DNA of 64,000 bases, from NCBI RefSeq assembly GCF_004336745.1, contig NZ_SJXD01000011.1, forward strand, positions 1,116,001 through 1,180,000. Reading direction: 5' to 3'. Below are positions 42,651 through 56,851 of this stretch, piece by piece. Position numbers and translations under genes: made by a program. The stretch is from Roseococcus sp. SYP-B2431. GTDB taxonomy: Bacteria > Pseudomonadota > Alphaproteobacteria > Acetobacterales > Acetobacteraceae. Below the pieces are notes generated by a model. That model made no database searches. It was not told the DNA's origin and saw nothing but the letters and a program-made list of their open reading frames with translations. Every line of letters starts with the position of its first letter. The stretch's first letter is position 1.

Positions 42651-43559
42651 ATGATGCTCAAGGACAAAGTCGCCGTCGTCACCGGGGCTGGTGGCGGAAT
42701 TGGACGCGAGATCGCCATCGCCATGGCCGAGTCCGGCGCCAAGGTGGTCATCAACGACATCGGCGCCTCGCTGGGCGGCGAGGGCTTCTCCGCCACCCCG
42801 GCCGAGCAGACCAAGGCCATCATCGAGCAGAAGGGCGGCCAGGCCGTCATCAGCACCGAGAGCGTGGCGGAGTGGGACAAGGCCAAGGCCATCGTCCAGA
42901 CCGCGATCGACGCCTTCGGCCGCATCGACATCGTCGTCAACAATGCGGGCATCCTGCGCGACCAGATCTTCCATCGCATGACGCCGGAAGAGTGGCTGTC
43001 GGTCATCAACGTGCACCTGAACGGCAGCTTCTTCATGAGCCGGGCCGCCGCCGAGCATTTCCGCAAGCAGGAAAGCGGCAGCCTCGTCCACATCACCAGC
43101 ACCTCGGGCCTCATCGGCAATTTCGGGCAGGCGAACTACTCGGCCGCCAAGCTCGGCATCGTGGCGCTGTCCAAGTCCATCGCGCTCGACATGAAGCGCT
43201 ACAACGTGCGCTCCAACTGCCTGGCGCCCTTCGCCTGGTCGCGCATGACGAGTTCCATCCCGGCCGAGACGCCGGAGCAGAAGGCGCGCGTCGAGCGCAT
43301 CATGCAGATGGGCCCGGAGAAGAACGCCCCGCTGGCGGTGTTCCTCGCCTCCGACGCCGCGAAGGAGGTCACCGGCCAGATCTTCGCACCGCGCATGCAC
43401 GAGCTCTTCCTGTTCAGCCAGAACCGGCCGATCCGCTCGGTGCACAGCGACGGCGGCTGGACGCCCGAGAAGATCGCCGAGATCGCCTTGCCCGCCTTCC
43501 GCTCCGGCTTCGTGCCCATGGAGCGCTCGGGCGACGTGTTCAGCTGGGATCCGATCTGA
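42651..43559 (+). CDS. SDR family oxidoreductase (3-hydroxyacyl-CoA dehydrogenase-like)
   Basis: A 302-residue short-chain dehydrogenase. TGAGGGIG near residue 11 binds the nucleotide, NNAG is present, and the catalytic Ser-Tyr-Lys lies in ITSTSG and NYSAAK. The insertion and C-terminal extension resemble the dehydrogenase part of peroxisomal multifunctional enzyme type 2, so a 3-hydroxyacyl-CoA is a reasonable substrate. GTAGGAGGAAT is a strong ribosome site. It is first of an operon with acyl-CoA dehydrogenase and CoA ligase genes. Confidence 0.92.
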   Translation: MMLKDKVAVVTGAGGGIGREIAIAMAESGAKVVINDIGASLGGEGFSATPAEQTKAIIEQKGGQAVISTESVAEWDKAKAIVQTAIDAFGRIDIVVNNAGILRDQIFHRMTPEEWLSVINVHLNGSFFMSRAAAEHFRKQESGSLVHITSTSGLIGNFGQANYSAAKLGIVALSKSIALDMKRYNVRSNCLAPFAWSRMTSSIPAETPEQKARVERIMQMGPEKNAPLAVFLASDAAKEVTGQIFAPRMHELFLFSQNRPIRSVHSDGGWTPEKIAEIALPAFRSGFVPMERSGDVFSWDPI

Positions 43560-43561
43560 GC

Positions 43562-44713
43562 ATGGATTTCCGGCTGAATGAGGAGCAGTCCGCCTTCCAG
43601 CAGGTGGTGCGCGGCTTCGCCGAGCGCCATCTGGCGAAGGATGCCGTCACCCGCGCGCATACCGTGGGCTTTCCCTGGGATGTCGCGAAGCTGATGGCCG
43701 AGCAGGGCCTCTTCGGGATCATGATCCCCGAGGAGGATGGCGGCGCCGGCGGCACGGTGTTCGACGCGGTGCTGGCCATGGAGCAGATCGCCCAGGTCTG
43801 CCCACGCAGCGCGGATGTCCTTCAGGCCGGGAATTTCGGTGCCTTCCGCACCTTCGCGGAATACGCCTCGCCCTATCAGAAAGAGCGGTTCTTCAAGCCG
43901 CTCCTGGCCGGCGAGGCGGTGGCCGCGGTCGGGATGACGGAGCCCGAGGCGGGCTCCGCGCTGACCGACCTGCGGACGAATTGCACGCCCGACGGCGAGG
44001 GCTGGCGGCTCAACGGCCAGAAGATCTTCACCACCAATTCGGCCGAGGCGAATGTCTTCGTCATCTATTGCCGCTTCGGACCGGGCGTCGGCGGCATCGG
44101 CTCGGTGCTGGTGGAGCGCGGTATGGAGGGGTTCCGGCTCGGCGAGCCCGGCCTCTACATGAATGACGAGGAGTGGTGCGCCCTCTACTTCGACAATGTC
44201 TATATCCCGCCCGAGATGGTGCTGCTCGGCCCGGGCGGTTTCAAGAAGCAGATCGGCGGCTTCAACGTAGAGCGCGTGGGCAATACGACGCGCGCGCTCT
44301 CGCTCGGCGAGTACTGCTTCTCCGCGGCGCGCGACCACGCGATGACGCGCACCCAGTTCGGCCGCAAGCTCATGGAGTTCCAGGGGCTGCAATGGAAGTT
44401 CGCCGAGATGCGGGTCGCGCTGGATAGCGCGCGGCTGCTGCTCTATCGCGCGGCCGTGAATGCGGGCCGTGGACTGCCGGACGGGCAGGAGGTGGCGCTT
44501 GCGAAGTATGCCTGCAACCAGGCGGGCTGGATGGCGTCTAACGAGGCCATGCAGGTCATGGGCGGGATGGGTTATTCGAAGGACCTGCTGATCGAATACT
44601 GCGTCCGCCGCACGCGCGGCTGGATGATCGCGGGCGGCAGCCTCGAGGTGATGAAGAACCGCATCGCCGAGGGCGTCTTCGGGCAGAGCTTTTCCCAGCG
44701 CCCACCCAAATGA
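43562..44713 (+). CDS. Acyl-CoA dehydrogenase family protein
   Basis: A 383-residue FAD enzyme with the acyl-CoA dehydrogenase domains: N-terminal helices (MDFRLNEEQSAFQQVVRGFAERH), the beta domain (AVGMTEPEAGSALTDL; KIFTTNSAEA) and the C-terminal helices (QFGRKLMEFQGLQWKFAEMR; QVMGGMGYSKD). The usual MCAD-type catalytic Glu position near the end is not Glu (WMIAGGSLEVMK), so the base may sit elsewhere, as in isovaleryl-CoA dehydrogenase. It starts two bases after the SDR gene. Confidence 0.93.
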   Translation: MDFRLNEEQSAFQQVVRGFAERHLAKDAVTRAHTVGFPWDVAKLMAEQGLFGIMIPEEDGGAGGTVFDAVLAMEQIAQVCPRSADVLQAGNFGAFRTFAEYASPYQKERFFKPLLAGEAVAAVGMTEPEAGSALTDLRTNCTPDGEGWRLNGQKIFTTNSAEANVFVIYCRFGPGVGGIGSVLVERGMEGFRLGEPGLYMNDEEWCALYFDNVYIPPEMVLLGPGGFKKQIGGFNVERVGNTTRALSLGEYCFSAARDHAMTRTQFGRKLMEFQGLQWKFAEMRVALDSARLLLYRAAVNAGRGLPDGQEVALAKYACNQAGWMASNEAMQVMGGMGYSKDLLIEYCVRRTRGWMIAGGSLEVMKNRIAEGVFGQSFSQRPPK

Positions 44714-46746
44714 AGGCCCTCCTTGCGCCTTCCAGCATCGCGCTGATCGGCGCGTCGGGTGATCCGGCGCGCCTCACCGCGCGGGCACAGATCTACCTGC
44801 GCCGCCACGGCTACACCGGCGCGCTCTATCCGGTGAATCCGCGCGCGCCGGAGGTGCTGGGCGAGCGCGCCTATGCCCGCGTCGAGGACATCCCCGACGC
44901 GATCGACTTCGCCTATATCCTGCTCGGCACGGAGCAGGTGGAATCGCAGATCGCCGCCGTCGCGGCCAAGGGCGCGCAGGTCGCCTGCATCCTGGCCGAC
45001 GGCTTCGCCGAGGCCGGCCCGGATGGCCAGGCCCTGCAGGATCGCTGCCTCGCCGCGGCGAAGGCGGCCGGGCTGCGGCTGCTCGGGCCCAATTCCATGG
45101 GCATCATCAACATCCCCCGGAAGATCGCGGCGAGCGTGAACGCGGCGCTGGAGGCCGAGAGCCTGCCATCCGGCCGCCTCGCGCTGGTGAGCCAGTCGGG
45201 CTCCATGCTGGGCGCCATCATGGGACGCGGGGCCGCGCGCGGGCTGGGCTTCAGCCACATGATCGCGACGGGCAACGAGGCCGACCTCACGGCCGGCGAG
45301 ATCGCCGCCATGCTGGTGCAGGACCCCGGCGTCGACGCGGTGATGCTCTTCCTGGAGGCGATCCGCGCGCCCGAGCATTACGCCGAGGCCGCGCGCCTCG
45401 CCCATGCCGCCGGCAAGCCGATCATCGCCTACAAGCTCGGCCGCTCCAGCTTCGGCGCGGAGCTCGCGACGAGCCATACCGGCGCGCTGGCCGGCAGCGA
45501 TGCCGCCGCGGACGCCTTCTTCCGCGCCAACGGCATCCTGCGGGCGACCATGCTGGAGAGCTTTCTCGAGCTTCCCGCGCTGGTGCTCGGCCGCAAGCCG
45601 CTGGGCAAGCCGCATCGCGCCGTCTCCGTCCTCACCACCACGGGCGGCGGCGGCGCCATGGCGGTGGACGCGCTCGGCATCGCCGGCATCGAGGCACGCG
45701 TGCCGGACGCCGCGGCCTCGGCCAAGCTCCACGACCTCGGCATGACGGCGCATGGCCGCCTGCTCGACATGACGCTGGCCGGCACGAAGCCCGAGCGCAT
45801 CGAGGCCGCCATCACGGCGCTGGCCGCCGCGCAGGACACGGATGCGGTCATCCCGGTGATCGGCTCCTCCGCGCAGTTCCGCCCCGCCGATGCGGTGGCC
45901 GGCATCCTGCGCGGACGCGACGCGGTGGGCGCGGACAAGCTCGTCGCCGCCTTCCTGGTGCCCCAGGCCGAGGCCTCGCTGCGCCTGCTGGCCGAGGCGG
46001 GCATTCCCGCCTTCCGCACGCCCGAGAGCCTGGCCGACGCCATGCGCGCCTGGCTCGACTGGCGCGTGCCCGCCCCGCCGGACATCTCCATGCCGCCCTT
46101 CTTCGAGCTGGCCGAGGCGCCGGACGAAGGCGATGCACGCGACCTCTTCGCCGCGCTGGGCCTCGCCACGCCCTATGCGCGGATGGGTGACGTCGCGGAC
46201 GTCCCGCAGGAGATGACCTACCCCGTCGCGCTGAAGATCCTCTCGCCGGACATCGCCCACAAGACCGAGGCCGGCGGCGTCGCGCTGAACATCCCCGATG
46301 CCGCGGCGTTGGCGGAGGCCGCGGCGAAGATGGAAGCGCGCGTGACGGTCGCCGCCCCCGAGGCGCGACTGACGGGCTTCCTGGTGCAGCCCATGTCGCG
46401 TGGCCTGTCCGAGGTCATCCTCGGCTTCCGCCGCGACCCTTCGGTCGGCCCCGTCGTGCTGCTCGGCGCGGGCGGCGTGCTGGCCGAGTTGCACCGCGAC
46501 GTCGCGCTGCGCCTCGCCCCGATCGACGAAGCCGGCGCCCGCGAGATGATCGCGGAAGTCCGGGCGCTCCGCGTCATCGAGGGCTGGCGCGGACTGCCAC
46601 GCGGCGATGTCGAGGCGCTGGTCGCGGCCATCGTCGCGGTCTCGAAGCTCGCGACCATGTCCGGCATCGCCGAGGCCGAGATCAATCCCCTGATGATCCA
46701 CGAGAGCGGCGTCACCGTCGCCGATGCCTGGGTGGTGCGTGCATGA
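44710..46746 (+). CDS. ADP-forming acyl-CoA synthetase family (acetate-CoA ligase-like)
   Basis: A 678-residue protein with the NDP-forming acyl-CoA synthetase layout: CoA-binding domain (SSIALIGASGDPARL), ligase/CoA domains with the phosphohistidine His256 (ATSHTGAL), and a C-terminal ATP-grasp domain from about residue 460 (YPVALKILSPDIAHKTEAGG). It would activate a free acid with ATP and CoA, or recover ATP from an acyl-CoA. Overlapping start and stop signals link it to the dehydrogenase and to the nitroreductase. Confidence 0.92.
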   Translation: MKALLAPSSIALIGASGDPARLTARAQIYLRRHGYTGALYPVNPRAPEVLGERAYARVEDIPDAIDFAYILLGTEQVESQIAAVAAKGAQVACILADGFAEAGPDGQALQDRCLAAAKAAGLRLLGPNSMGIINIPRKIAASVNAALEAESLPSGRLALVSQSGSMLGAIMGRGAARGLGFSHMIATGNEADLTAGEIAAMLVQDPGVDAVMLFLEAIRAPEHYAEAARLAHAAGKPIIAYKLGRSSFGAELATSHTGALAGSDAAADAFFRANGILRATMLESFLELPALVLGRKPLGKPHRAVSVLTTTGGGGAMAVDALGIAGIEARVPDAAASAKLHDLGMTAHGRLLDMTLAGTKPERIEAAITALAAAQDTDAVIPVIGSSAQFRPADAVAGILRGRDAVGADKLVAAFLVPQAEASLRLLAEAGIPAFRTPESLADAMRAWLDWRVPAPPDISMPPFFELAEAPDEGDARDLFAALGLATPYARMGDVADVPQEMTYPVALKILSPDIAHKTEAGGVALNIPDAAALAEAAAKMEARVTVAAPEARLTGFLVQPMSRGLSEVILGFRRDPSVGPVVLLGAGGVLAELHRDVALRLAPIDEAGAREMIAEVRALRVIEGWRGLPRGDVEALVAAIVAVSKLATMSGIAEAEINPLMIHESGVTVADAWVVRA

Positions 46747-47558
46747 CCGATCCCCGCCCGCTGATCGAGGCCCGCTTCGGCCACCTCCCCTTCGAGCCGC
46801 CGGCCGAGATCCCGCCGGCGCTCGCCGCGATCCTCGATCGCCGTGTGACGCGCCGCTACAAGCCCGACGCCATCCCCACGCCGCTGCTCGCCACGGTCCT
46901 CGCCGCCGCGCAATCCGCGCCGAGCAAGAGCGACATGCAGCAGCTCTCCATCGTGGTGCTCGAGGACAAGGCGCGCATCGCCCTCATCGCCGACTGGATC
47001 GGCACCATGCCCTGGATCAAGGACGCACCGGTCCTGCTGATCTTCTGCGCCGACATCCGGCGCAACCGCGACATCACCGTCCGCGCCGGCCGAGAGCATG
47101 CGAACGACAACCTCGACACCCTCCTGAACGCCACGGTGGATTCCGCCCTGGCCATGGGCATGACCATCGCCGCCGCCGACGCGGCCGGCCTCGGCACCTG
47201 TCCCATCAGCTATGTTCGGAACCACCTGGAGAAGGTCGGGCCGCTGCTCTCGCTGCCCAGGGGCGTCTTCCCCATCGCCGGGCTGACGCTGGGCTGGCCC
47301 TCCTCGCGCAACGAGCCGAGCGCGCGGCTGCCGCCCTCCGTCGTCATCCACCGCGAGCGCTACTCGACGGAAGGCGAGGCGGAAGCCCTCGCCGGTTACG
47401 ACGCGCGGCGGGATAAGGCCAAGCCGCGCTACCCGGAGGTGCATGGACCGGCACCGGAAGGCTGCAGCTGGACCGAGAATGTGGCGCGGCAGCTCTCCGT
47501 GCCGGAACGGGCCGGGTTCCGGGCCTGGCTCAGGTCGCGCGGCTTCGCGCTTGACTGA
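46743..47558 (+). CDS. Nitroreductase family flavoprotein
   Basis: A 271-residue FMN enzyme of the NfsA/NfsB superfamily. RRVTRRYKPDAIP, AAAQSAPSKSDMQ and the later AADAAGLGTCPISYVRN are family FMN-binding motifs. It reduces nitro, quinone or enone groups with NAD(P)H. It is the fourth gene of the operon, overlapping the ligase stop by four bases. It may process an activated unsaturated intermediate. Confidence 0.9.
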   Translation: MTDPRPLIEARFGHLPFEPPAEIPPALAAILDRRVTRRYKPDAIPTPLLATVLAAAQSAPSKSDMQQLSIVVLEDKARIALIADWIGTMPWIKDAPVLLIFCADIRRNRDITVRAGREHANDNLDTLLNATVDSALAMGMTIAAADAAGLGTCPISYVRNHLEKVGPLLSLPRGVFPIAGLTLGWPSSRNEPSARLPPSVVIHRERYSTEGEAEALAGYDARRDKAKPRYPEVHGPAPEGCSWTENVARQLSVPERAGFRAWLRSRGFALD

Positions 47559-47567
47559 CAAGCCGAT

Positions 47568-47613
47568 GCGGGGCTCCGCCCCGCGCCCCGCTGGGGTCCG
47601 TGGCGGACCCCAG
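47568..47613. repeat. Tandem GC hairpins, REP-like
   Basis: Two hairpins lie ten bases after the nitroreductase stop: GCGGGGC-TCC-GCCCCGC (47568-47584) and a 10-bp perfect stem CTGGGGTCCG-TGG-CGGACCCCAG (47591-47613). They look like an intergenic repeat and probably end or buffer the acyl-CoA operon. Two runs of seven G follow at 47641-47647 and 47655-47661. Confidence 0.7.
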
Positions 47614-47679
47614 ACCCCGCCGAGACAGGACGACAATCCCGGGGGGGCCGATCAGGGGGGGCGCAAACCCAGCAAGCCG

Positions 47680-48297
47680 GTGCGGCCGAAGGACGCGGCC
47701 AGCCTGATCCTATGGAAGCATGGGCCGCGCGGCATCGAGATCCTGATGGGACGCCGTCACCACAACCTGCGCTTCATGCCGGGCGTGCTCGTCTTTCCGG
47801 GCGGCCGCGTGGACCCGGACGACCACCGCGCCCAGCCGCTCAGCCCCCTGCCGGCCGACACGCGGCGCATGCTGGAGATCAGCGCCACGCCGGCCCGCGC
47901 GACGGCCCTCGCCCACTGCGCCCTGCGCGAGCTGCACGAGGAGGCCGGCCTCGTTCTCGGCGAGATGGCGGGCGACCGGCTCCGCCCGGATTTCGCGCCG
48001 TTGAGCTATCTGACGCGCGCGATCACGCCCGCCGACCGGCCGATGCGCTTCCACGCCCGCTTCCTGATCGCCGAGGCGCACCATGCCAAGGGCGAGATCC
48101 GCGGCTCCGGCGAGCTGGAGGAAATCCGCTTCTTCGCGCTGACGGAGCTGCACGAGCAGCCGGTGGCCAAGATCACCGCGATGATCCTCGCCGAGTTCGA
48201 GGCCTGGCTGGGGACGCCGGCGACGGATCGCGCCCACCGCCAGTTCATCCGCATCCAGGGCCGCGACAGCCGGCTGCCCGAGCGCCGGAGTCCCTGA
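47680..48297 (+). CDS. Nudix hydrolase
   Basis: A Nudix protein of about 205 residues. The box is split by a long insertion: GGRVDPDD early, then CALRELHEEAGLVLGE carrying the REx2EExG core, as in the NUDT19/CoA-diphosphatase-like group. It may hydrolyse CoA esters or other nucleoside diphosphates. The frame is open back through the hairpins to an ATG at 47566; I place the start at GTG 47680 because the upstream stretch is repeat sequence with no homology. The start is uncertain. Confidence 0.85.
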   Translation: MRPKDAASLILWKHGPRGIEILMGRRHHNLRFMPGVLVFPGGRVDPDDHRAQPLSPLPADTRRMLEISATPARATALAHCALRELHEEAGLVLGEMAGDRLRPDFAPLSYLTRAITPADRPMRFHARFLIAEAHHAKGEIRGSGELEEIRFFALTELHEQPVAKITAMILAEFEAWLGTPATDRAHRQFIRIQGRDSRLPERRSP

Positions 48298-48303
48298 ACC
48301 GCC

Positions 48304-49536
48304 TTAGGGTGCGGCGGGGCAATTCGCGCTGACGGGCTCGGCGCGGAAACGCGCATTCATCCAGGCCAGAGCGTCGGCCGCACCAGCCGCCATCGAGCCG
48401 TTGTGGTCGGCACCCGGATAGCGGCGGTACTCAAGAAAATTCCCGCTCGCGCAGAGGCGGCGCACCATGTCGTCCGTATCGGCGGGCAGCACGGTCACGT
48501 CGGCCGTACCCTGCATCACCACGGTCGGAACGGGAATGCGAAGGTCGCTCGGCTCGTTCTGCGCCGCGACCACCAGGAAGGCCGAAAGGTCGGGATCCGG
48601 CAGGAACTGCTCCTTCGCGATGGCGGTCGCGAAATAGCTGTCGGTCAGCGTCCGCGTCATGCAGCCGAGCTGAAGCTCCGGCAGATGCGCGATCGCCTGG
48701 GGCGTCAGGATCTTCGCCAAATCGATGCTCGGGTGGTTCTGCGCATAGGATTGCAGAACGTAGAGCACATAGGGCAGCGCAAGCTCGACCTGGGGCGAGG
48801 CACGCACCGCGTTCAACCGGCTCACGATATGCGAGCCCGGCGCGAAGGCGAGGTTGCCCAGGAGCTGGAATTCCGGCGCGTAACCCCGCGCCAGCGCTGC
48901 GGCGAAGAGGTCGGTATGGCCGCCCTGGGAATGGCCCATCACGGCGAAGCGCGTGCCGATCGAGGGCTCGATGGCCCGCGCGGCGCGCAGCATGTCGAGC
49001 GCGTTCCGCGCATTCGGCACGCCCTGCAGGAAGGGATGCGTGCCCGCCACGCCGAGCCCCTCGTAGTCGCTCGCGACGACGGCATAGCCCGCACGCACGA
49101 AGCCATCGAGGAGCGTCGCGATCTTCTCGATATAGGAGTGTTCCGGACCGTTCGCGCCGTCGCGCGAGGGCGCGCAGATCGCCCCGAGGCCGGTCGTGCC
49201 ATGGGTCCAGTTGATCACCGGCCAGCCGCCCGCGGGAGGCCGCCCTTGGGGAATGGAGACGGTCCCCGAAACCGCGACCGTTCCACCCGCGCCGCCGAGG
49301 GAGCGATAGACCACGAGCCGGTTCCGCGACGCGCTGGCCAGCGCCATCGTCCCTTCCAGGGGGCGCGACCAGATCACGCTGCCGTGGCGGCCCGCGCGGC
49401 TTTGCGCTGGAGGCGCGTAGGCCGCATCGCCCGCCGGGGCGATGGGCGCCGCGTGGCTGGGACCGGCGAAGGCGATGGCAGCAAGAAACGAAGCGCCGGC
49501 GAGACCGAGGCGGCCGGCGTTACGGAACGATGTCAT
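48304..49536 (-). CDS. Secreted lipase/esterase (secretory lipase-like alpha/beta hydrolase)
   Basis: A 410-residue exported hydrolase. The signal peptide ends SHAAP (about residue 30). VINWTHGTTG supplies the oxyanion hole, GHSQGG the nucleophile, ADVTVLPADTD the acid and YPGADHNGS the His. The layout and C-terminal cysteine match the secretory lipase (LIP) family. It is 48 bases from the metallo-hydrolase gene on the same strand and may be in the same transcript. Confidence 0.88.
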   Translation of the reverse strand: MTSFRNAGRLGLAGASFLAAIAFAGPSHAAPIAPAGDAAYAPPAQSRAGRHGSVIWSRPLEGTMALASASRNRLVVYRSLGGAGGTVAVSGTVSIPQGRPPAGGWPVINWTHGTTGLGAICAPSRDGANGPEHSYIEKIATLLDGFVRAGYAVVASDYEGLGVAGTHPFLQGVPNARNALDMLRAARAIEPSIGTRFAVMGHSQGGHTDLFAAALARGYAPEFQLLGNLAFAPGSHIVSRLNAVRASPQVELALPYVLYVLQSYAQNHPSIDLAKILTPQAIAHLPELQLGCMTRTLTDSYFATAIAKEQFLPDPDLSAFLVVAAQNEPSDLRIPVPTVVMQGTADVTVLPADTDDMVRRLCASGNFLEYRRYPGADHNGSMAAGAADALAWMNARFRAEPVSANCPAAP

Positions 49537-49584
49537 GCGGGAGCTTTCGGGCCTGGAGGACTCCCATCTTCATAAGGATTCAGG

Positions 49585-50454
49585 TCAGGTCAACCGCCAG
49601 GCCTCGCCCTCGCGCACCGCCGCGCCGTCCTCTTCCAGCATGATCAGCTGCGACAGCATGCTGCGCCCCGCCGCCGCGATGAGGCGCGGGTCGAGCGGGC
49701 CATAGACCGGGCCGACCAGCGCCTCGACCGTCGCCGGCCCATGCTCGCGCAGGGCGGCCACGATGCGCGTCTCGCGCTTCTGCCGATGCGCTGACAGCCC
49801 GTCGAGGAAGGGCATGGGGTCGGGCAGGCTCGGGCCGTGGCCAGGAAGATAGAGCTCGTCGATCCCCTCGCGGGCGCGCAGCCTGGCGATGCTCTGCATG
49901 AAGCTGCGCATATTGCCGTCGGGCGGGCTGACGACGCTGGTGGACCAGGCCATCACATGGTCGGCGCTGAACAGGATGCCCGTGCCGTCTAGCGCGAAGC
50001 AGAGGTGGTTGCCGCAATGGCCGGGCGTGAAGAGCGCCGTGACGGATCGGCCGCCGATCTCGGCGGTCTCGCCGTCGGTCAGGCGGATCTCGGGGATGAA
50101 GCTGTGGTCCCCGCTCTCGCCCGGCGTCACGTGCGGGCCGTGGCCGTAGGTGGTCGCGCCGGTGATCGTCTTCAGCGGCGCCACGCCCGGCGAATGGTCA
50201 CGATGGGTGTGGGAGACGACGATCTGCGTGATGGTTTCGCCGCTGGTCGCCGAGAGGATCGCGGCGAGATGCGCCTCGTCGATCGGGCCGGGGTCGAGCA
50301 CGGCGACGCTGCTGCCCGTGCCGATCAGATAGGTGTTGGTGCCGCGATAGGTGAAGGCGCTGGGATTGTTGCAGATGATGCGGCGGACGCCCGGGGCGAT
50401 GGTCTCGACCTCGCCGGGCATCAGCGCGTCCTCGCGCCGGAAGGGAATGTTCAA
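49585..50454 (-). CDS. Metallo-beta-lactamase-fold hydrolase (LACTB2-like)
   Basis: A 289-residue enzyme with the binuclear zinc motif HTHRDH, downstream His in TPGHCGNHL, Asp in FSADHVM and His in LPGHGPS. A C-terminal winged-helix-like extension follows the catalytic domain, as in LACTB2/glyoxalase II relatives. Possible substrates are thioesters or RNA; not resolvable here. The start overlaps the DMT transporter stop by four bases. Confidence 0.9.
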   Translation of the reverse strand: MNIPFRREDALMPGEVETIAPGVRRIICNNPSAFTYRGTNTYLIGTGSSVAVLDPGPIDEAHLAAILSATSGETITQIVVSHTHRDHSPGVAPLKTITGATTYGHGPHVTPGESGDHSFIPEIRLTDGETAEIGGRSVTALFTPGHCGNHLCFALDGTGILFSADHVMAWSTSVVSPPDGNMRSFMQSIARLRAREGIDELYLPGHGPSLPDPMPFLDGLSAHRQKRETRIVAALREHGPATVEALVGPVYGPLDPRLIAAAGRSMLSQLIMLEEDGAAVREGEAWRLT

Positions 50455-51359
50455 GGACGGACTCCTGACTTCTTCTGGACAGCGCGGATCATCTCGCGTC
50501 GCAGGATGTAGAGGGCGGCCGCGACGATCAACCCCGCGCCCAGGAAGGTGAAGGGCCCGGGTTGCTCGCCGAAGACGATCCAGCCCAGCACCACGGCCCA
50601 GAGGATGCCGGTGTAGGAATAGGCGCCGAGGGAGGAGACCTGCGCGCTCGCATAGGCCTCGGTCAGCATGACCTGCGCCAGGCCGCCGAAGGCGCCGATG
50701 CCGATCAGGATCAGGAAGACCTCCCAGTCCGGCGTCACCCAGACGAAGGGCAGGGCCAGCGCGGCCAGGCCCGTGGTCAGCAGCGACTGCCAGATGACGA
50801 TCGTCGTGGAGCGCTCGGTGGCCGAGAGGGTGCGCACCAGCAGCGTGCTCGCCGCCGAGAAGAGGCCGTGGATGGTCGCGACCGCCATGCCGATGGCGAC
50901 CCAGGGATCGAGTTCCCCGCCGAAGGCCCCCTGCCCCAGCGCGATCACCAGCACCCCCAGGAAGCCGAGGCCGACTGCGGCGAAACGATGGACGCCCACC
51001 TTCTCGCCCAGGAAGGGAATGGCCAGGAGCGTCGCGAAGATGGGCGTGGTGTAGGTCAGCGCCGTCTGCTCGGCGAAGGGCAGCAGGGTCAGCGAGAAGA
51101 AGGAGCAGGCCATCGCCGTCGTGCCCGTCAGGGCGCGGAGCATATGGGCCGGCAGCCGCTTCGTCGCGAGCTGCGGATGGCCCATGCGCAGGACGATGGC
51201 GAGCACGACCGGCATCGCCAGCAGGCTGCGGAAGAAGATGATCTCGACGAAGGGAATGCGATCGCCGACGAGCTTGATCAGCGCGCCCATCACGGTGAAG
51301 AGCGCGGTCGCGGCGAGCATGAGCAGCGCGCCGCGCCGCGCGTCATGTCGCAGCGGCAC
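50451..51359 (-). CDS. DMT (EamA) family transporter 2
   Basis: A 302-residue inner-membrane protein with ten predicted helices in two EamA repeats (first TALFTVMGALIKLVGDRIPF; second GLFSAASTLLVRTLSA). Members export or import metabolites; the cargo is unknown. It overlaps the preceding DMT gene by 17 bases, and the two may have arisen by duplication or form a pair. Confidence 0.9.
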   Translation of the reverse strand: MPLRHDARRGALLMLAATALFTVMGALIKLVGDRIPFVEIIFFRSLLAMPVVLAIVLRMGHPQLATKRLPAHMLRALTGTTAMACSFFSLTLLPFAEQTALTYTTPIFATLLAIPFLGEKVGVHRFAAVGLGFLGVLVIALGQGAFGGELDPWVAIGMAVATIHGLFSAASTLLVRTLSATERSTTIVIWQSLLTTGLAALALPFVWVTPDWEVFLILIGIGAFGGLAQVMLTEAYASAQVSSLGAYSYTGILWAVVLGWIVFGEQPGPFTFLGAGLIVAAALYILRREMIRAVQKKSGVRP

Positions 51360-52284
51360 GCATCGCTCTTTCCTCGGTCCGGCGCACGCGCTCGCGATGG
51401 ACGTTGTAGATGCCGGCCGCGACCACGACGGCGGCGCCGGCCAGGGTGGTCCAGGCCGGAACCTCGCCGAAGATCATGAAGCCGAGCAGCAGGCCCCAGA
51501 GCAGCGGCGTGTATTCCAGCGGTGCCAGCGTGGCCACGCTGGCCAGCGCATAGCCGCGCGAGAAGAGCAGATGCGCCAGGGCATTCGAGGCGCCGAAGAA
51601 GCAGAGCAGCATGACCATCGTGACGGAGGGAAAAAGGTCCGGCCCATCCCCGGTCGTCGGCCAGAGCGCCGGGAAGGGCAGCGCCGCGAGCCCGAAGGGG
51701 ATATGCATCAGCATGAGCCAGAAGGCGATGGTGGTGGGCGTGTCCGTCGCGGCGAGCACGCGCGTCCAGATCCGGCTGACCGCCATGGCCGCGACCGCGC
51801 CGAGCAGGGGGATGGTTTCCCAGCGCCAGAGGTCGCCGCCCGGCTGCAGCATGATCAGCACGCCGCAGAAGCCGACGAAGCAGGAGGTCCAGCGCCGCCA
51901 GCCCACCTTCTCGCCCAGCATGGGGATGGCAAGCAGCGTCATCAGCAGCGGCGCGGCGGCGGCGACGGCATAGGAATCCGCGAGGCGATAGCCCCGGAGC
52001 CAGACGAGATACCAGACGATCGCGCTCGCGCAGTGCAGCGCCGAGCGCAGCAGGATCAGGCGCATGTTGCGCGGCCGGAGATCCCGCCCGCGCGACAGCA
52101 GCGCGACCGCCCCCGCGCCCGCGAAGCCGCGCCAGAGCAGCGCGCCCACCACGCCCACCGTCGGCAGGGCGTATTTCACCGCGACATCGGCCAGGGTGAT
52201 GATGACGAAGCCCGCCAGCGCCACCGAGAGGCCGCGGACCGCGGCCTCCCCGCTCGTCGACCGGCCGGGAGGGGCGTCAGCCAA
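51343..52284 (-). CDS. DMT (EamA) family transporter 1
   Basis: A 313-residue protein with ten helices and two EamA repeats (GFVIITLADVAVKYALPTVG; VAAMAVSRIWTRVLAATDTP). It overlaps the hydratase stop by eight bases. A tandem of two EamA genes next to a hydratase suggests transport of a compound from the same pathway. Confidence 0.9.
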   Translation of the reverse strand: MADAPPGRSTSGEAAVRGLSVALAGFVIITLADVAVKYALPTVGVVGALLWRGFAGAGAVALLSRGRDLRPRNMRLILLRSALHCASAIVWYLVWLRGYRLADSYAVAAAAPLLMTLLAIPMLGEKVGWRRWTSCFVGFCGVLIMLQPGGDLWRWETIPLLGAVAAMAVSRIWTRVLAATDTPTTIAFWLMLMHIPFGLAALPFPALWPTTGDGPDLFPSVTMVMLLCFFGASNALAHLLFSRGYALASVATLAPLEYTPLLWGLLLGFMIFGEVPAWTTLAGAAVVVAAGIYNVHRERVRRTEERAMRAAAT

Positions 52285-53104
52285 GAACGGCCTCGGCCTG
52301 CATGCAGGTGGCGCCCGAGCCGTCGCGGGTCTCGGCCACGGCCTGGTCGCCCTCGACGCGGACCAGCACGGTCAGGGGATTGCCGGCGAAGGCCGGGCGG
52401 CGGCCGCGGAAGGCGAAGCGGACCAGCCGCAGCCCGGGCGCGGCATCGAGGATGGCCTGGGCCAGGAAGGTCGCCTGGAGGGGGCCATGCACGACGAGGC
52501 CCGGATAGCCCTCCTCGCCCATGGCATAGGGCTGATCGTAATGGATGCGATGGCCGTTGCCCGTCAGCGCCGAATAGCGGAACAGCATCAGGGAATCGGG
52601 CATCAGCTCGATCCGCGAATCGGCCGCGAAGTCCGGCGCGGGCTCGCCGGTACGGACCGCCGCGCCCTCAGCGCCGCGATAGACGATGTCCTGCTCCTCG
52701 TGGAGCACCGGGCCGGCGGGACCGCCGATCTCGTGCTGCACCGTCACGAAGACCAGCCGGCCCGATCCGCCCGACTTCTCCGAGACGGATTTGATGGTCG
52801 AGCGCCGCCGCACCACGTCGTCCGCGCGCAGGCCATTGGAGGTGAACTGCAGCCGCCCGCCCGCCCACATGCGGCGCGGCAGGTCGTGCACGGGCGGCAG
52901 GAAGCCGCCGCGCCTGGGATGGCCGTCGGGGCCGATGCCCTCGGGCCGGCGCCAATCCTGGAAGAGCATCCAGTGCCAGAGCGGCGGAATCTCGTCCTTC
53001 GGCAGGTCGTGATCGAGCGTGGCGGCCAGCCCCTCGACGAGGCGGGGGTCGAGGCGGTCCTCCCGGGTCTCGGTCCGGCCGATATAGTCCTGGTGGCTGG
53101 TCAT
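52277..53104 (-). CDS. HTD2/MaoC-type hydratase (mesaconyl-C4-CoA hydratase-like)
   Basis: A 275-residue double hot-dog protein of the HTD2 / FAS1-like dehydratase group. The N-terminal half has PLWHWMLFQDW and LPRRMWAGGRLQF; the C-terminal half has FRYSALTGNGHRIHYDQPYA, with the Asn/His catalytic region of MaoC enzymes, then GLVVHGPLQATFLAQ. It should hydrate an enoyl-CoA, such as mesaconyl-CoA in C5 diacid breakdown. The ATG at 53104 overlaps the upstream membrane protein stop (ATGA). Confidence 0.9.
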   Translation of the reverse strand: MTSHQDYIGRTETREDRLDPRLVEGLAATLDHDLPKDEIPPLWHWMLFQDWRRPEGIGPDGHPRRGGFLPPVHDLPRRMWAGGRLQFTSNGLRADDVVRRRSTIKSVSEKSGGSGRLVFVTVQHEIGGPAGPVLHEEQDIVYRGAEGAAVRTGEPAPDFAADSRIELMPDSLMLFRYSALTGNGHRIHYDQPYAMGEEGYPGLVVHGPLQATFLAQAILDAAPGLRLVRFAFRGRRPAFAGNPLTVLVRVEGDQAVAETRDGSGATCMQAEAVLG

Positions 53105-54657
53105 GGGTCCTCGCGTCGGAAGATGCGATAGCCGGCGAAATCGGCCGTCTGGCGGTAGCGGCGGAGGGCGGTCGCGAAGCCGGGGTCGCGGCCGTAATAT
53201 TCCAGGTAGTCGAAGTCGCGGCCGCAATAGGGGATGGCGGTGTGGCGCGCGACCATCAGCGCCTGGGGCGGGCTGCGGGCCATGCCCTGGGTCACCGAAT
53301 CCCAGATCAGCCGCTCGCCGGGGCCCATCCCGGCCGGGTCGCGGTAGCGGGCGCCGTCCGGCAGGCAGTCCTGGTTGGCGGCCTGGACCAGCCAATTGTT
53401 CAGCGTCGGCAGCGTGGAGAGCGCCTTCGCGTAATTGAGCGCGGGGAAGACCGGGTGGATATCGGGCGAGAGCACCAGGACGCGGCCGCCCGGCGCATCC
53501 TGCCGGATCTCGGCGGCGATGGCGCCGGGCCAGGAATTCCGGAAGGAGACGGCGCGCCAGGTCTCCGCATTGAGCAGGCCCAGCAGCGCCAGGAAGCCGG
53601 CCGCGAGCGCCGCGAAGCGGGGCGAAATGCCGGCCGGCGAGGGCAGGTTAGCATCGAGCCAGCGCCCGGCCAGAAGCACGGCCAGCAGGGCGCCGAGCAG
53701 CTTGACCGGCATCACATGGTAGGACCAGCCGCGCATCTGCAGGAGGGCGGCGGCCAAGGCGCCGAGGCCCGCCAGGGCCAGCACCGGCGCGAGGCCCCTC
53801 GGACGGAGCAGGGCCAGCCCCGCGGCCGGCAGGAAGACCAGCAGCGCCGGCGCCATGCGCTCGTTCAGCAGCACGGCGCCCAGAGTCGCGGTGCTGTGAT
53901 AGTTCTCGAGCGCGAGCGGCAAGGCAAAGCCCTCGTAGTCCGGGAAGGCGAGGTGGATCAGCGCCAGATAGGCGGCCCAGATCGCCGCCATGGCCCAGGG
54001 CACCGGATCGCGGAAGCCGCGCCGGCCGGCGCGGCACAGCACGTAGAGCTCGACCAGCGCGGGGATGGCCAGGAAGTGCGGCTTCAGCGCGAGGAAGACG
54101 GCCGCGAGCAGCGCGACGCCCAGTGCCAGCGGCAGCGGCGTCCGCAGGCCCTCCGCCCGGCGCGCCGCCAGCACGAGATAGGGCAGCGTCGCGGCCAGCA
54201 TGAGGTGCTCGCGCTGGCCGAAGTCATAGCCGGCGGCGAGCAGGATCAGCGGGATCCCGACCGCCAGGCCGGCCATCGCGACCGGCCCTTGCGGCAGCCC
54301 CCGCAGCAGTCGCAGCGCCAGCCCGGCGCCGAGCGCGCAGACCGCCAGAACCGAAAGCAGCACGCCGTCGACAGGCCCGACGCCGAGCGCCGTCCAGAAG
54401 GCCATGGCCCCGCGCGTGAGCAGGAAGACCAGCGGTGGGTTCATGTCGATGAGGTCGCGATACAGCGCCTCGCCGTTTCGCCAACGCATCGAAAAATCGA
54501 GGACGGCCGCCACGTCATGATTGAGGGGCGGCGAGAGCACGATCGCCAGGAACGCTACCCCGGGCAGGGCGGCGATCGCCCAGAACGGCCAGGCGCTCCC
54601 GGACACCACCGGCGAGGGGCCCAGCGCCGGGGCCGGGTGTTGATCTGGCAGGCTCAT
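53101..54657 (-). CDS. GT-C-like polytopic membrane glycosyltransferase
   Basis: A 518-residue inner-membrane protein with about 11 helices and a C-terminal soluble part (about 395-518). Near residues 46-75, LNHDVAAVLDFSMRWRNG and then ALYRDLIDMNPPLVF match the first external loop of GT-C/ArnT-like enzymes, which carry an acidic pair and a YxD...NPPL segment and move sugars from a polyprenyl phosphate. It heads a minus-strand operon with metabolic genes, and is divergent from a methyltransferase-GT2-SMR set that could supply its donor. The acceptor is unknown. Confidence 0.78.
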   Translation of the reverse strand: MSLPDQHPAPALGPSPVVSGSAWPFWAIAALPGVAFLAIVLSPPLNHDVAAVLDFSMRWRNGEALYRDLIDMNPPLVFLLTRGAMAFWTALGVGPVDGVLLSVLAVCALGAGLALRLLRGLPQGPVAMAGLAVGIPLILLAAGYDFGQREHLMLAATLPYLVLAARRAEGLRTPLPLALGVALLAAVFLALKPHFLAIPALVELYVLCRAGRRGFRDPVPWAMAAIWAAYLALIHLAFPDYEGFALPLALENYHSTATLGAVLLNERMAPALLVFLPAAGLALLRPRGLAPVLALAGLGALAAALLQMRGWSYHVMPVKLLGALLAVLLAGRWLDANLPSPAGISPRFAALAAGFLALLGLLNAETWRAVSFRNSWPGAIAAEIRQDAPGGRVLVLSPDIHPVFPALNYAKALSTLPTLNNWLVQAANQDCLPDGARYRDPAGMGPGERLIWDSVTQGMARSPPQALMVARHTAIPYCGRDFDYLEYYGRDPGFATALRRYRQTADFAGYRIFRREDP

Positions 54658-54798
54658 GCTCCGGCTATCGCTTCCGCGCCCGCACTTTCGCCGCGCCGGC
54701 CCCAGATGCAAGGCCATTGCGGCGCTTTGCGGGCGATCTGCCCCTCTTCCGACGCAAGGATGACTTGCGGCCGCCGCTTCGGAAGTCGAGAAGAGCCC

Positions 54799-55542
54799 GT
54801 GGACGCTGCCGAATACGCCCTGATGGACGCGGTCGAGGACCGGATGTGGTGGTACCGCGCCATGCACGGCCACGCCCTGCGCGCCCTCCACGCTCTTCCG
54901 GAGGGCGCCCGCGTGCTCGATGCCGGCTGCGGGACGGGCGGCTTTCTCGCCCGCCTCCGCGAGGCGAGGCCGCGGGCCGAGCTCTACGGGGTGGAATACG
55001 CGGAAGGCGCGGCCGCCCGCGCCGCGAGGAAGGCGGGCGCCCATATCGCCTGCGGCACGGCGAACGCCCTGCCGTTTCCCGAGGCCTGCTTCGATGCCGT
55101 CACGAGCCTCGACGTGATCTGCCATGCCGGGGTCGATCCGTCGCAGGCCCTGGCCGAATTCCGCCGCGTGCTGCGCCCGGGGGGGCTGCTGGTGCTGAAC
55201 CTGCCCGGCCATGACTGGCTTAGATCGGCGCATGACCTGCGGGTCCACAATGCCCGCAGGTTCGAGCGCGCGGGCACCCGTCGCCTGCTGGAATCCGCGG
55301 GCTTCGCCGCCGCCGATGCCCGCCACTGGAACAGCCTGCTGCTCCCTCTCATGATCCTGCAGCGCAAGATCCTGGCGAAGCACGACGAGGCGGCGTCGGA
55401 CGTGACGCCCTACCCCGCCTGGCTCGATGCGAGCCTGCTCGCGATCTGCCGGCTCGAAGCCGCGCTGCTGCGCGCCGGGCTACGCTTCCCTGCTGGCGGC
55501 TCGCTCGTCACCACCGCCATCCGTTCCGAAAGCCGCCCATGA
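54799..55542 (+). CDS. SAM-dependent class I methyltransferase
   Basis: A 247-residue methyltransferase with motif I (VLDAGCGTGGFLARL), acidic residue on strand 2 (YGVEYAEG), the later SLDVICHAG and LRPGGLLVLNLPG, a Methyltransf_11-type pattern. The GTG at 54799 is taken because the conserved N-terminus starts there. The frame is open far upstream but only as a shadow of the opposite gene. Its stop overlaps the GT2 start, so it likely modifies a sugar or lipid in that pathway. Confidence 0.87.
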   Translation: MDAAEYALMDAVEDRMWWYRAMHGHALRALHALPEGARVLDAGCGTGGFLARLREARPRAELYGVEYAEGAAARAARKAGAHIACGTANALPFPEACFDAVTSLDVICHAGVDPSQALAEFRRVLRPGGLLVLNLPGHDWLRSAHDLRVHNARRFERAGTRRLLESAGFAAADARHWNSLLLPLMILQRKILAKHDEAASDVTPYPAWLDASLLAICRLEAALLRAGLRFPAGGSLVTTAIRSESRP

Positions 55543-56513
55543 ACCCCGAAGACGATCCCGTCGGCCCCTCTTTCATTGGCTTGTCCATCGTCGTGCCCGT
55601 CTATCGCGGCGCCGCCACGGTCGGCCGTCTCGTCGAGGCGCTCTCGAAGCTGCGGCCCGCCGGCGGCCTCGAGATCATCCTGGTGAACGACGGCAGCCCG
55701 GACGAGAGCGGCGACGTCTGCCGCCGCCTGGCCGAGACGGCGACGGTCCCGCTCACCTATATCGAGCACGCCCGCAACTTCGGCGAGCACAACGCCGTCA
55801 TGACCGGGCTGCGCCATGCCCGCGGCGCCTATGTCATCAACATGGACGACGACCTGCAGAATCCGCCCGAGGAGGTGGTGCGCCTCTACGACCACGCCCG
55901 CCTCGGCGGCTGGGACGTGGTCTACACGCGCTACGCCAAGAAGGAGCACGAAGGCTGGCGCAACCTGGGCAGCCGCTTCGCCAACTGGGTGGCCGACCAG
56001 CTCATGGACAAGCCCAAGGGCCTCTACCTCTCCTCCTTCCGCTGCATGAGCGCGATGGTGGTGAGGGAGGTCACGAAATACTCCGGCCCCTACCCCTATA
56101 TCGACGGCCTCGTCATGCAGGTGACGCAGCGTATCGCCTCCATCGAGGTCGCGCATTACGCGCGCGAGGAGGGCCAGTCGAACTACACCATGCGGCGGCT
56201 GATCCGGCTCTGGCTGAACCTCGCGACCAACTTCTCCGTGCTGCCGCTGCGGCTGGCGATCTTCGCCGGCGCCGGGATGGGCGCGCTGGGCTTCATCCTG
56301 GCCGTCTTCGTCGTCGTCGAGGCCTTCTTCCGCGAGACACCCTCCGGCTGGGCCTCCAGCATGACGCTGATGCTGCTCATCGCGGGCGTGCAGTTCCTCA
56401 TCCTCGGCGTGATGGGCGAGTATGTCGGCCGCGCCTTCCTCTCGGCCAACGGCAAGCCCCAAGGCGTGGTGCGCGACGTCGTCCGCCCGCGCGAGCCGGC
56501 CACGCACGAATGA
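55539..56513 (+). CDS. Polyprenyl-phosphate glycosyltransferase (GT2, ArnC/GtrB-like)
   Basis: A 324-residue GT2 enzyme. The catalytic domain has IVVPVYRG at the start, LVNDGSPDES with the nucleotide-binding acid, and MDDDLQNPPEE as the DxD-type motif; QSNYTMRRL is the amphipathic region. Two C-terminal helices anchor it in the membrane. This layout is that of ArnC, GtrB and DPM-type enzymes, which transfer a sugar to undecaprenyl phosphate. The start overlaps the methyltransferase stop (ATGA), and the next gene overlaps its own stop. Confidence 0.92.
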   Translation: MNPEDDPVGPSFIGLSIVVPVYRGAATVGRLVEALSKLRPAGGLEIILVNDGSPDESGDVCRRLAETATVPLTYIEHARNFGEHNAVMTGLRHARGAYVINMDDDLQNPPEEVVRLYDHARLGGWDVVYTRYAKKEHEGWRNLGSRFANWVADQLMDKPKGLYLSSFRCMSAMVVREVTKYSGPYPYIDGLVMQVTQRIASIEVAHYAREEGQSNYTMRRLIRLWLNLATNFSVLPLRLAIFAGAGMGALGFILAVFVVVEAFFRETPSGWASSMTLMLLIAGVQFLILGVMGEYVGRAFLSANGKPQGVVRDVVRPREPATHE

Positions 56514-56851
56514 TGATCCACTGGATCGCACTCTCGGCGGCCATCTGCTCCTCGCTGATCGGGCAGGTGCTGCTGAAGGCGGGCGCGGAATCGCTGAACG
56601 GCGCGGGCTTCGTGGAGCAGGTGCTGCGCTGGCAGACGCTGCTGGGGCTCTGCTTCTACGGCTCGGGCGCGATGCTCTACATCGTGGCGCTGCGGAAGAT
56701 CCCGATGAGCGTGGCCCTGCCCTGCACCGCTGCGAGCTACGTGGTGATCGCGGCGATCGGCTGGTGGTTCTTCGGCGAGGCGCTGGGGACGCAGAAGATC
56801 CTGGCCATCGCGCTCATCGCGGCGGGCGTCATCGCACTGGCAAGCGCGTAG
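56510..56851 (+). CDS. Small EamA/SMR-type membrane protein (ArnE/F-like)
   Basis: A 113-residue protein of four helices with GQVLLKAGAES near the start and GWWFFGEALGTQKILAIALI near the end, typical of the SMR/half-EamA group that includes ArnE and ArnF, the flippase for a polyprenyl-linked sugar. Directly after an ArnC-like gene, a role as flippase is more likely than drug efflux. It ends the operon, with a terminator following. Confidence 0.85.
   Translation: MMIHWIALSAAICSSLIGQVLLKAGAESLNGAGFVEQVLRWQTLLGLCFYGSGAMLYIVALRKIPMSVALPCTAASYVVIAAIGWWFFGEALGTQKILAIALIAAGVIALASA

Follow-up and report, generated by a model that had tools for sequence, protein, structure and literature searches.

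In a 64,000-nucleotide stretch of a Roseococcus contig (NZ_SJXD01000011.1; hereafter the window), a gene for a membrane glycosyltransferase, which we call GTC, lies divergent from three genes encoding a methyltransferase (MT), a polyprenyl-phosphate glycosyltransferase (GT2), and a small membrane protein (SMR). We conclude that these four genes probably form the membrane half of a six-gene core pathway for putting an amino sugar on a molecule of the cell envelope. The other two core genes encode a short-chain dehydrogenase/reductase (SDR) and a DegT enzyme, and in the window's genome this SDR-DegT pair lies on another contig (G000:C27, L073:9535-12178). The original prediction had the four window genes load a sugar onto a lipid carrier, flip it, and transfer it to an acceptor, with a methylation step, and this still appears to be the best reading of the sequences. 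The four genes are as described there, but the half of the pathway that likely makes the sugar, SDR-DegT, is elsewhere in the genome.

The gene set, its linkage, the protein families, and the GT-C fold were obtained by computation, and from them the reactions would run as follows. RmlA and RmlB would make dTDP-4-keto-6-deoxyglucose, the SDR or, in some genomes, FdtA would move the keto group, and the DegT enzyme would aminate the keto sugar. MT would methylate the sugar while it is bound either to the nucleotide or to the lipid, and GT2 would transfer it to polyprenyl phosphate on the cytoplasmic side. SMR would flip the lipid-linked sugar, and GTC would pass it to the acceptor on the periplasmic side. 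We infer the dTDP carrier, amination at C3, the target of methylation, and the order of the steps.

Linkage and co-occurrence of the six genes

MT, GT2, and SMR lie upstream of GTC in 66 of 71 GTC loci from other records, and the remaining five loci hold GTC copies away from this three-gene module (L146, L156, L157, L167, and L168). Because the four-gene arrangement recurs in 66 of 71 loci, it is not due to chance. The loci derive from 157 GTC relatives in named records, of which 80 were kept; the upstream counts use the 71 of these 80 with at least 3.5 kb upstream (nine are too short), and counts of downstream genes use 59 of the 80. Among these best 80 of 157 relatives, the closest to the window's GTC are in a Rubritepida metagenome-assembled genome (75%) and in Roseococcus pinisoli (74%).

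The predicted co-occurrence of the four genes in relatives is also found when 150 genomes of the same family, the Acetobacteraceae, are profiled. GT2 is present in 65 of these genomes, MT in 65, and SMR in 69. GT2 and MT are found together in 64, with each found alone in 1, and GT2 and SMR are found together in 65, with GT2 alone in 0 and SMR alone in 4. GTC occurs only alongside GT2 (35 of 35 family genomes). The module is carried by Roseomonas mucosa (L141), an opportunist of people. Sampling across the class found GT2 in a further 26 of 336 genomes, and each of these 26 lies outside the family. For 25 of the 26 loci (GT2 was not called in L231), MT is beside GT2 in 24, SMR in 18, GTC in 14, a PMT_2-type GT-C gene in 4, and SDR in 9. 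Genes were called by a codon-usage finder trained on 11 window genes, and absences are soft because this finder fails in low-G+C loci (L078, L227, and L231).

The SDR-DegT pair follows the module in its distribution, and this bears on the possibility that a plain hexose is added in the manner of GtrA/GtrB/GtrC while SDR-DegT serves an unrelated O-antigen amino sugar in the same lineages. We consider this unlikely. It would suit the position of SDR-DegT, which lies apart from the module both in the window's genome and in most family genomes, and the PDB matches of GT2 over residues 12-319, where ArnC is nearest (E 6e-40) and sll0501, which we take to be a GtrB-type enzyme, also matches (E 1e-30). 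However, GT2 and DegT are both present in 64 family genomes and both absent from 82, with GT2 only in 1 (G103) and DegT only in 3 (G002, G100, and G144). Moreover, 12 of the 25 non-family loci have DegT at most six genes away from GT2; six of these loci are full cassettes that carry all six genes contiguously, the SDR being cut by the contig end in L194. DegT and SDR also lie near SMR in several relatives.

The sugar and the Tyr-less SDR

On the pathway proposed here, the sugar is most likely a dTDP-amino-6-deoxyhexose. The DegT protein of the window's genome scores 331 bits against 7b0d, 294 bits against 2oga, which is presumably DesV, a C3 aminotransferase, and 269 bits against QdtB, vs 147-174 bits against chains named ArnB. 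Of 20 retrieved family DegT loci, gene calls put SDR directly before DegT in 19, and search coordinates do so in the remaining one. RmlA and/or RmlB adjoin the pair in 5 of the 23 family genomes from which it was retrieved (G005, G015, G038, G045, and G125) and, by tblastn, in L121. Of these neighbouring copies, those of L089 were tested against TIGR01207 and TIGR01181, and they pass. The window's genome also has RmlA and RmlB, both over the cut-offs (447.8 and 444 bits), and RmlA is a single copy there at E 1e-30. From the DegT scores together with the Rml and FdtA neighbours, a dTDP-3-amino-6-deoxyhexose would be the most likely product.

A UDP-based route of the Arn kind, in which the SDR makes a 4-keto UDP-sugar, DegT converts it to a 4-amino sugar, and the final acceptor is lipid A, strikes us as quite improbable on a comparison that took in the SDR, DegT, GTC, and the neighbouring genes. 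The SDR profile does match E. coli ArnA (53 bits, in a search of six proteins), E. coli ArnB is 33% identical to DegT, and the fold of GTC is nearest to ArnT, but the DegT scores just given favor QdtB and 2oga over the ArnB-named chains, and the neighbouring RmlA/RmlB and FdtA are enzymes of dTDP-glucose chemistry (PMC2943079).

Three other features of the window's genome were noted. A gene resembling the Rid family is upstream of SDR-DegT at G000:C27, and genes of this kind turn up again in other retrieved sequences (cluster d10, 14 members). An apparent rmlD-rmlC-rmlA-rmlB cluster is located at G000:C1:322-327 kb (L180:7889-11247), with RmlC and RmlD recognized by eye. Nucleotide-sugar epimerases and several glycosyltransferase-like genes were seen by eye at G000:C23 (L181:5489-14382).

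The SDR of the proposed pathway is itself unusual. The catalytic Tyr of the YxxxK motif is Asn in 39 of 39 SDR rows (38 distinct proteins), which places these proteins outside the canonical extended SDRs, while all five SDRs used as references, of which the window's genome supplied four, have the Tyr. The Lys, Ser, and Thr are kept in the pathway SDRs. In three cassettes FdtA (PF05523) stands between GTC and MT (L195, 91.6 bits; L196, 81.4 bits; and L199), and these three genomes have only generic SDRs of 29-31% identity. When SDR is counted as present at 47% identity or more, the 26 non-family genomes divide into 14 with SDR only, 8 with FdtA only, 2 with both, and 2 with neither (Fisher p 0.001 for exclusion over the 26 genomes, uncorrected for relatedness). 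Full exclusivity was considered and dropped, as 2 of the 26 genomes have both genes and the exclusion is near but incomplete. The near-complementary distribution of SDR and FdtA makes the SDR a possible new ketoisomerase.

The membrane proteins, GTC, and comparison with known systems

MT, GT2, and SMR all score above the Pfam cut-offs for their families (Table 1), and MT probably methylates the sugar. GT2 is likely a polyprenyl-phosphate glycosyl synthase; E. coli ArnC is 31% identical to it, and it scores under the ArnC equivalog cut-off (162.8 vs 529 bits). SMR is likely an ArnE-like flippase, and it also scores under the equivalog cut-off, in this case that of ArnE (31.9 vs 92 bits). That SMR instead exports drugs, with the cluster being no more than glycan genes loosely grouped together, is highly improbable, because although SMR matches EmrE in PDB (E 0.003) and Multi_Drug_Res in Pfam, the position of EmrE Glu14 is Ser in the window's SMR and S, G, or T in 57 of 57 SMR sequences, the SMR family profile picks out E. 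coli ArnE with E 8e-14 when six proteins are searched, and SMR is present in 65 of 65 family genomes with GT2.

For GTC, the original prediction had set a GT-C fold as one of two points on which it could be refuted, and computation bears the fold out. GTC has an ArnT-like GT-C fold, with ArnT as the best match; receptors and acyl-CoA dehydrogenases, which ranked below the GT-C enzymes in the fold comparison, were taken as unrelated. At the level of sequence, neither Pfam nor NCBIfam assigns GTC to a family at E 0.01, its profile has no match up to E 10 among PDB sequences, and a sequence link to the PMT_2-type GT-C was looked for and not found. An Asp in the first outer loop, D48, is present in 30 of 30 sequences and in 43 of 43 sequences that have a residue there. 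On the Pfam, NCBIfam, and PDB searches, GTC is a candidate for a GT-C family that no curated model covers, and it likely hands the sugar from its lipid to an acceptor located beyond the inner membrane.

GTC is not an obligatory part of the set: it is often with the module, but of the 65 family genomes that carry GT2, 30 do not have it, among them two from the same genus as the window, and a PMT_2-type GT-C takes its place in four non-family loci (L197, L205, L206, and L211). A relative of this PMT_2-type GT-C is directly before SDR-DegT in two further genomes (L221 and L225), the proteins of these six loci having about 555-580 aa. Relatives of GTC occur in 50 of the 150 family genomes, the orthologue in 35, a paralogue that we call GTC2 (~33%) in 28, and both in 13, with identities of at least 41% assigned to GTC and of 29-37% to GTC2. 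Two remnants of GTC lie near the module, one short and degenerate (L042:7743-8042, 36 bits) and one interrupted by stops (G077:C36:5236-5595), so GTC has probably been lost in some lineages. This loss and the PMT_2-type substitutes suggest a constant loading module with an exchangeable transferase, as is the case in Gtr systems.

At its most specific, the proposal would be of an Alphaproteobacterial system in which a constant set of MT-GT2-SMR and SDR-DegT works with an exchangeable GT-C (GTC, GTC2, or PMT_2-type) to put a methylated 3-amino-6-deoxyhexose on an envelope molecule, and in which the Asn-for-Tyr SDR is a new 3,4-ketoisomerase that replaces the unrelated cupin FdtA. We put this version forward only tentatively, as a possibility.

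In the 22 GTC2 loci, the genes ahead of GTC2 are often those of a branched-chain-type ABC uptake operon, a peptidase gene, or a gene for a small membrane protein. GTC2 is a few genes from SDR-DegT in L085 and L086, both fetched as DegT loci, and no SDR-DegT is near it within the fetched stretch of the other 20 loci. No hint of the acceptor came from the genes around GTC2 in these 22 loci or around the five GTC copies that lie apart from the module. A plasmid search with GTC gave zero matches.

A number of results weigh against the proposed pathway, and some of them against the SDR doing the work of FdtA in particular. Shared presence in the 150 family genomes is partly shared ancestry, for which reason Fisher values computed on them cannot be read as probabilities. 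Outside the family SMR was not found in 7 of 25 loci and DegT is not nearby in 13 of 25. GT2 is kept in 17 family genomes that have neither GTC nor GTC2. Compared with one E. coli ArnT sequence, GTC gives an hhalign probability of 0.2%, or no detectable similarity. D145 of GTC was considered as the counterpart of ArnT D158 and dropped because it is not conserved outside the family, with Asp in 27 of 44 GTC sequences. Rml genes adjoin SDR-DegT in a minority of loci only, and the RmlA and RmlB of the window's genome sit in the apparent rmlDCAB rhamnose cluster. An FdtA/QdtA-type cupin was found neither in the window's genome nor in 40 other family genomes, these 41 being the ones checked out of the 65 that carry GT2. 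Both genomes that hold SDR and FdtA together (L219 and L220) have FdtA near a more distant DegT; in L214-L217 FdtA appears to pair likewise with a more distant DegT, and this DegT could serve another pathway; and G441 has the cassette DegT without SDR and with FdtA apart.

The pathway as proposed resembles several known ones. With the Arn system for L-Ara4N (arnBCADTEF of E. coli) it shares a DegT enzyme, an SDR, an ArnC-type GT2, a likely SMR flippase, and a GT-C transferase. In contrast to Arn, GT2 and SMR are here far under the Arn equivalog cut-offs, a methyltransferase is added, Rml and FdtA neighbours occur in some genomes, and GTC is not alignable with ArnT by sequence. With the dTDP-Fuc3NAc/Qui3NAc pathways it shares RmlA/RmlB, FdtA in three cassettes, and a DegT close to QdtB, but here the Tyr-less SDR rather than FdtA is beside DegT in most genomes, and the sugar would go to a lipid carrier.

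Arn and Gtr systems are the textbook cases of change to the bacterial surface after assembly. If the proposal is true, the genes described here are another layout for surface modification (GT2 in 65 of 150 family genomes and 26 of 336 others). No description of this layout was found in titles and abstract openings of the open-licence literature, among the matches listed. According to PMC11127046, the Citrobacter Ribf system with GT136 has a polyprenyl-phosphate sugar synthase, a flippase, and a GT-C transferase together with accessory sugar enzymes. A likely synthase, a likely flippase, and a GT-C transferase are what our genes have in common with such three-component periplasmic systems (GtrA/B/C and Ribf), from which they differ in the linked amino-sugar genes, in the methyltransferase, and in having SMR and not a MATE flippase. 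As the genes miss the ArnC and ArnE cut-offs, add a methyltransferase, and have apparent dTDP chemistry, we regard the pathway as a variant of three-component glycosylation. It yields both a GT-C family candidate for which curated models are lacking and an SDR that has lost the Tyr and whose reaction is directly testable. If exposed at the outer surface, a basic sugar could alter envelope charge and host recognition.

Layout of the locus and the genes beside GTC

Table 1. Features of the locus, in window coordinates
Feature	Coordinates	Strand	Description
GTC gene	53101..54657	-	518 aa; membrane glycosyltransferase, GT-C family without Pfam, NCBIfam, or PDB sequence match
Gap between divergent gene sets	54658..54798		141 bases with MT start at GTG 54799 (read from sequence)
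MT gene	54799..55542	+	class I S-adenosylmethionine-dependent methyltransferase; PF08241 (Methyltransf_11), 80.7 bits vs cut-off 21.2
GT2 gene	55539..56513	+	ArnC/GtrB-kind polyprenyl-phosphate glycosyltransferase; PF00535 (Glycos_transf_2), 96.2 bits vs cut-off 23.3
SMR gene	56510..56851	+	small DMT-superfamily membrane protein; ATG 56510 or 56513; PF00893 (Multi_Drug_Res), 30.7 bits vs cut-off 23.7
HYD gene	52277..53104	-	FAS1-like dehydratase; shares 4 bases with GTC
Two EamA transporters and MBL-fold (metallo-beta-lactamase) hydrolase	49585..52284	-	downstream of GTC

The four open reading frames are present where they had been placed, and the stop/start coupling of the three plus-strand genes is seen in the sequence, where ATGA overlaps join the MT stop to the GT2 start (55539-55542) and the GT2 stop to the SMR start (56510-56513). 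The GTC stop overlaps the start of the next minus-strand gene in the same ATGA manner (53101-53104). The MT reading frame also permits ATG 54760 as its start, which would leave 102 bases between the divergent gene sets in place of the 141 with GTG 54799; GTG 54799 is more likely because homologues open with a matching M-(E/D)-x-x-E-Y.

Behind GTC, the hydratase, the two EamA genes, and the metallo-hydrolase are present as the original prediction had listed them. Its claim that GTC leads a catabolic operon holds to the extent that these genes are there and are common neighbours (hydratase in 34, EamA in 54, and metallo-hydrolase in 51 of the 59 loci). However, MBL at least is independent of the module because it is in 115 of 150 family genomes vs 65 of 150 for GT2, and on these counts it was dropped as a part of the pathway. 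Probably none of these downstream genes has a part in the pathway, and the EamA and metallo-hydrolase genes would sit there as members of a conserved genomic block; MBL is the one profiled genome-wide. A block before the module (window positions 42651-50454) recurs in many relatives, including some without GTC. By eye, it contains genes for a short-chain dehydrogenase, an acyl-CoA dehydrogenase, CoA-ligase-like and nitroreductase-like proteins, a NUDIX protein, and the MBL.

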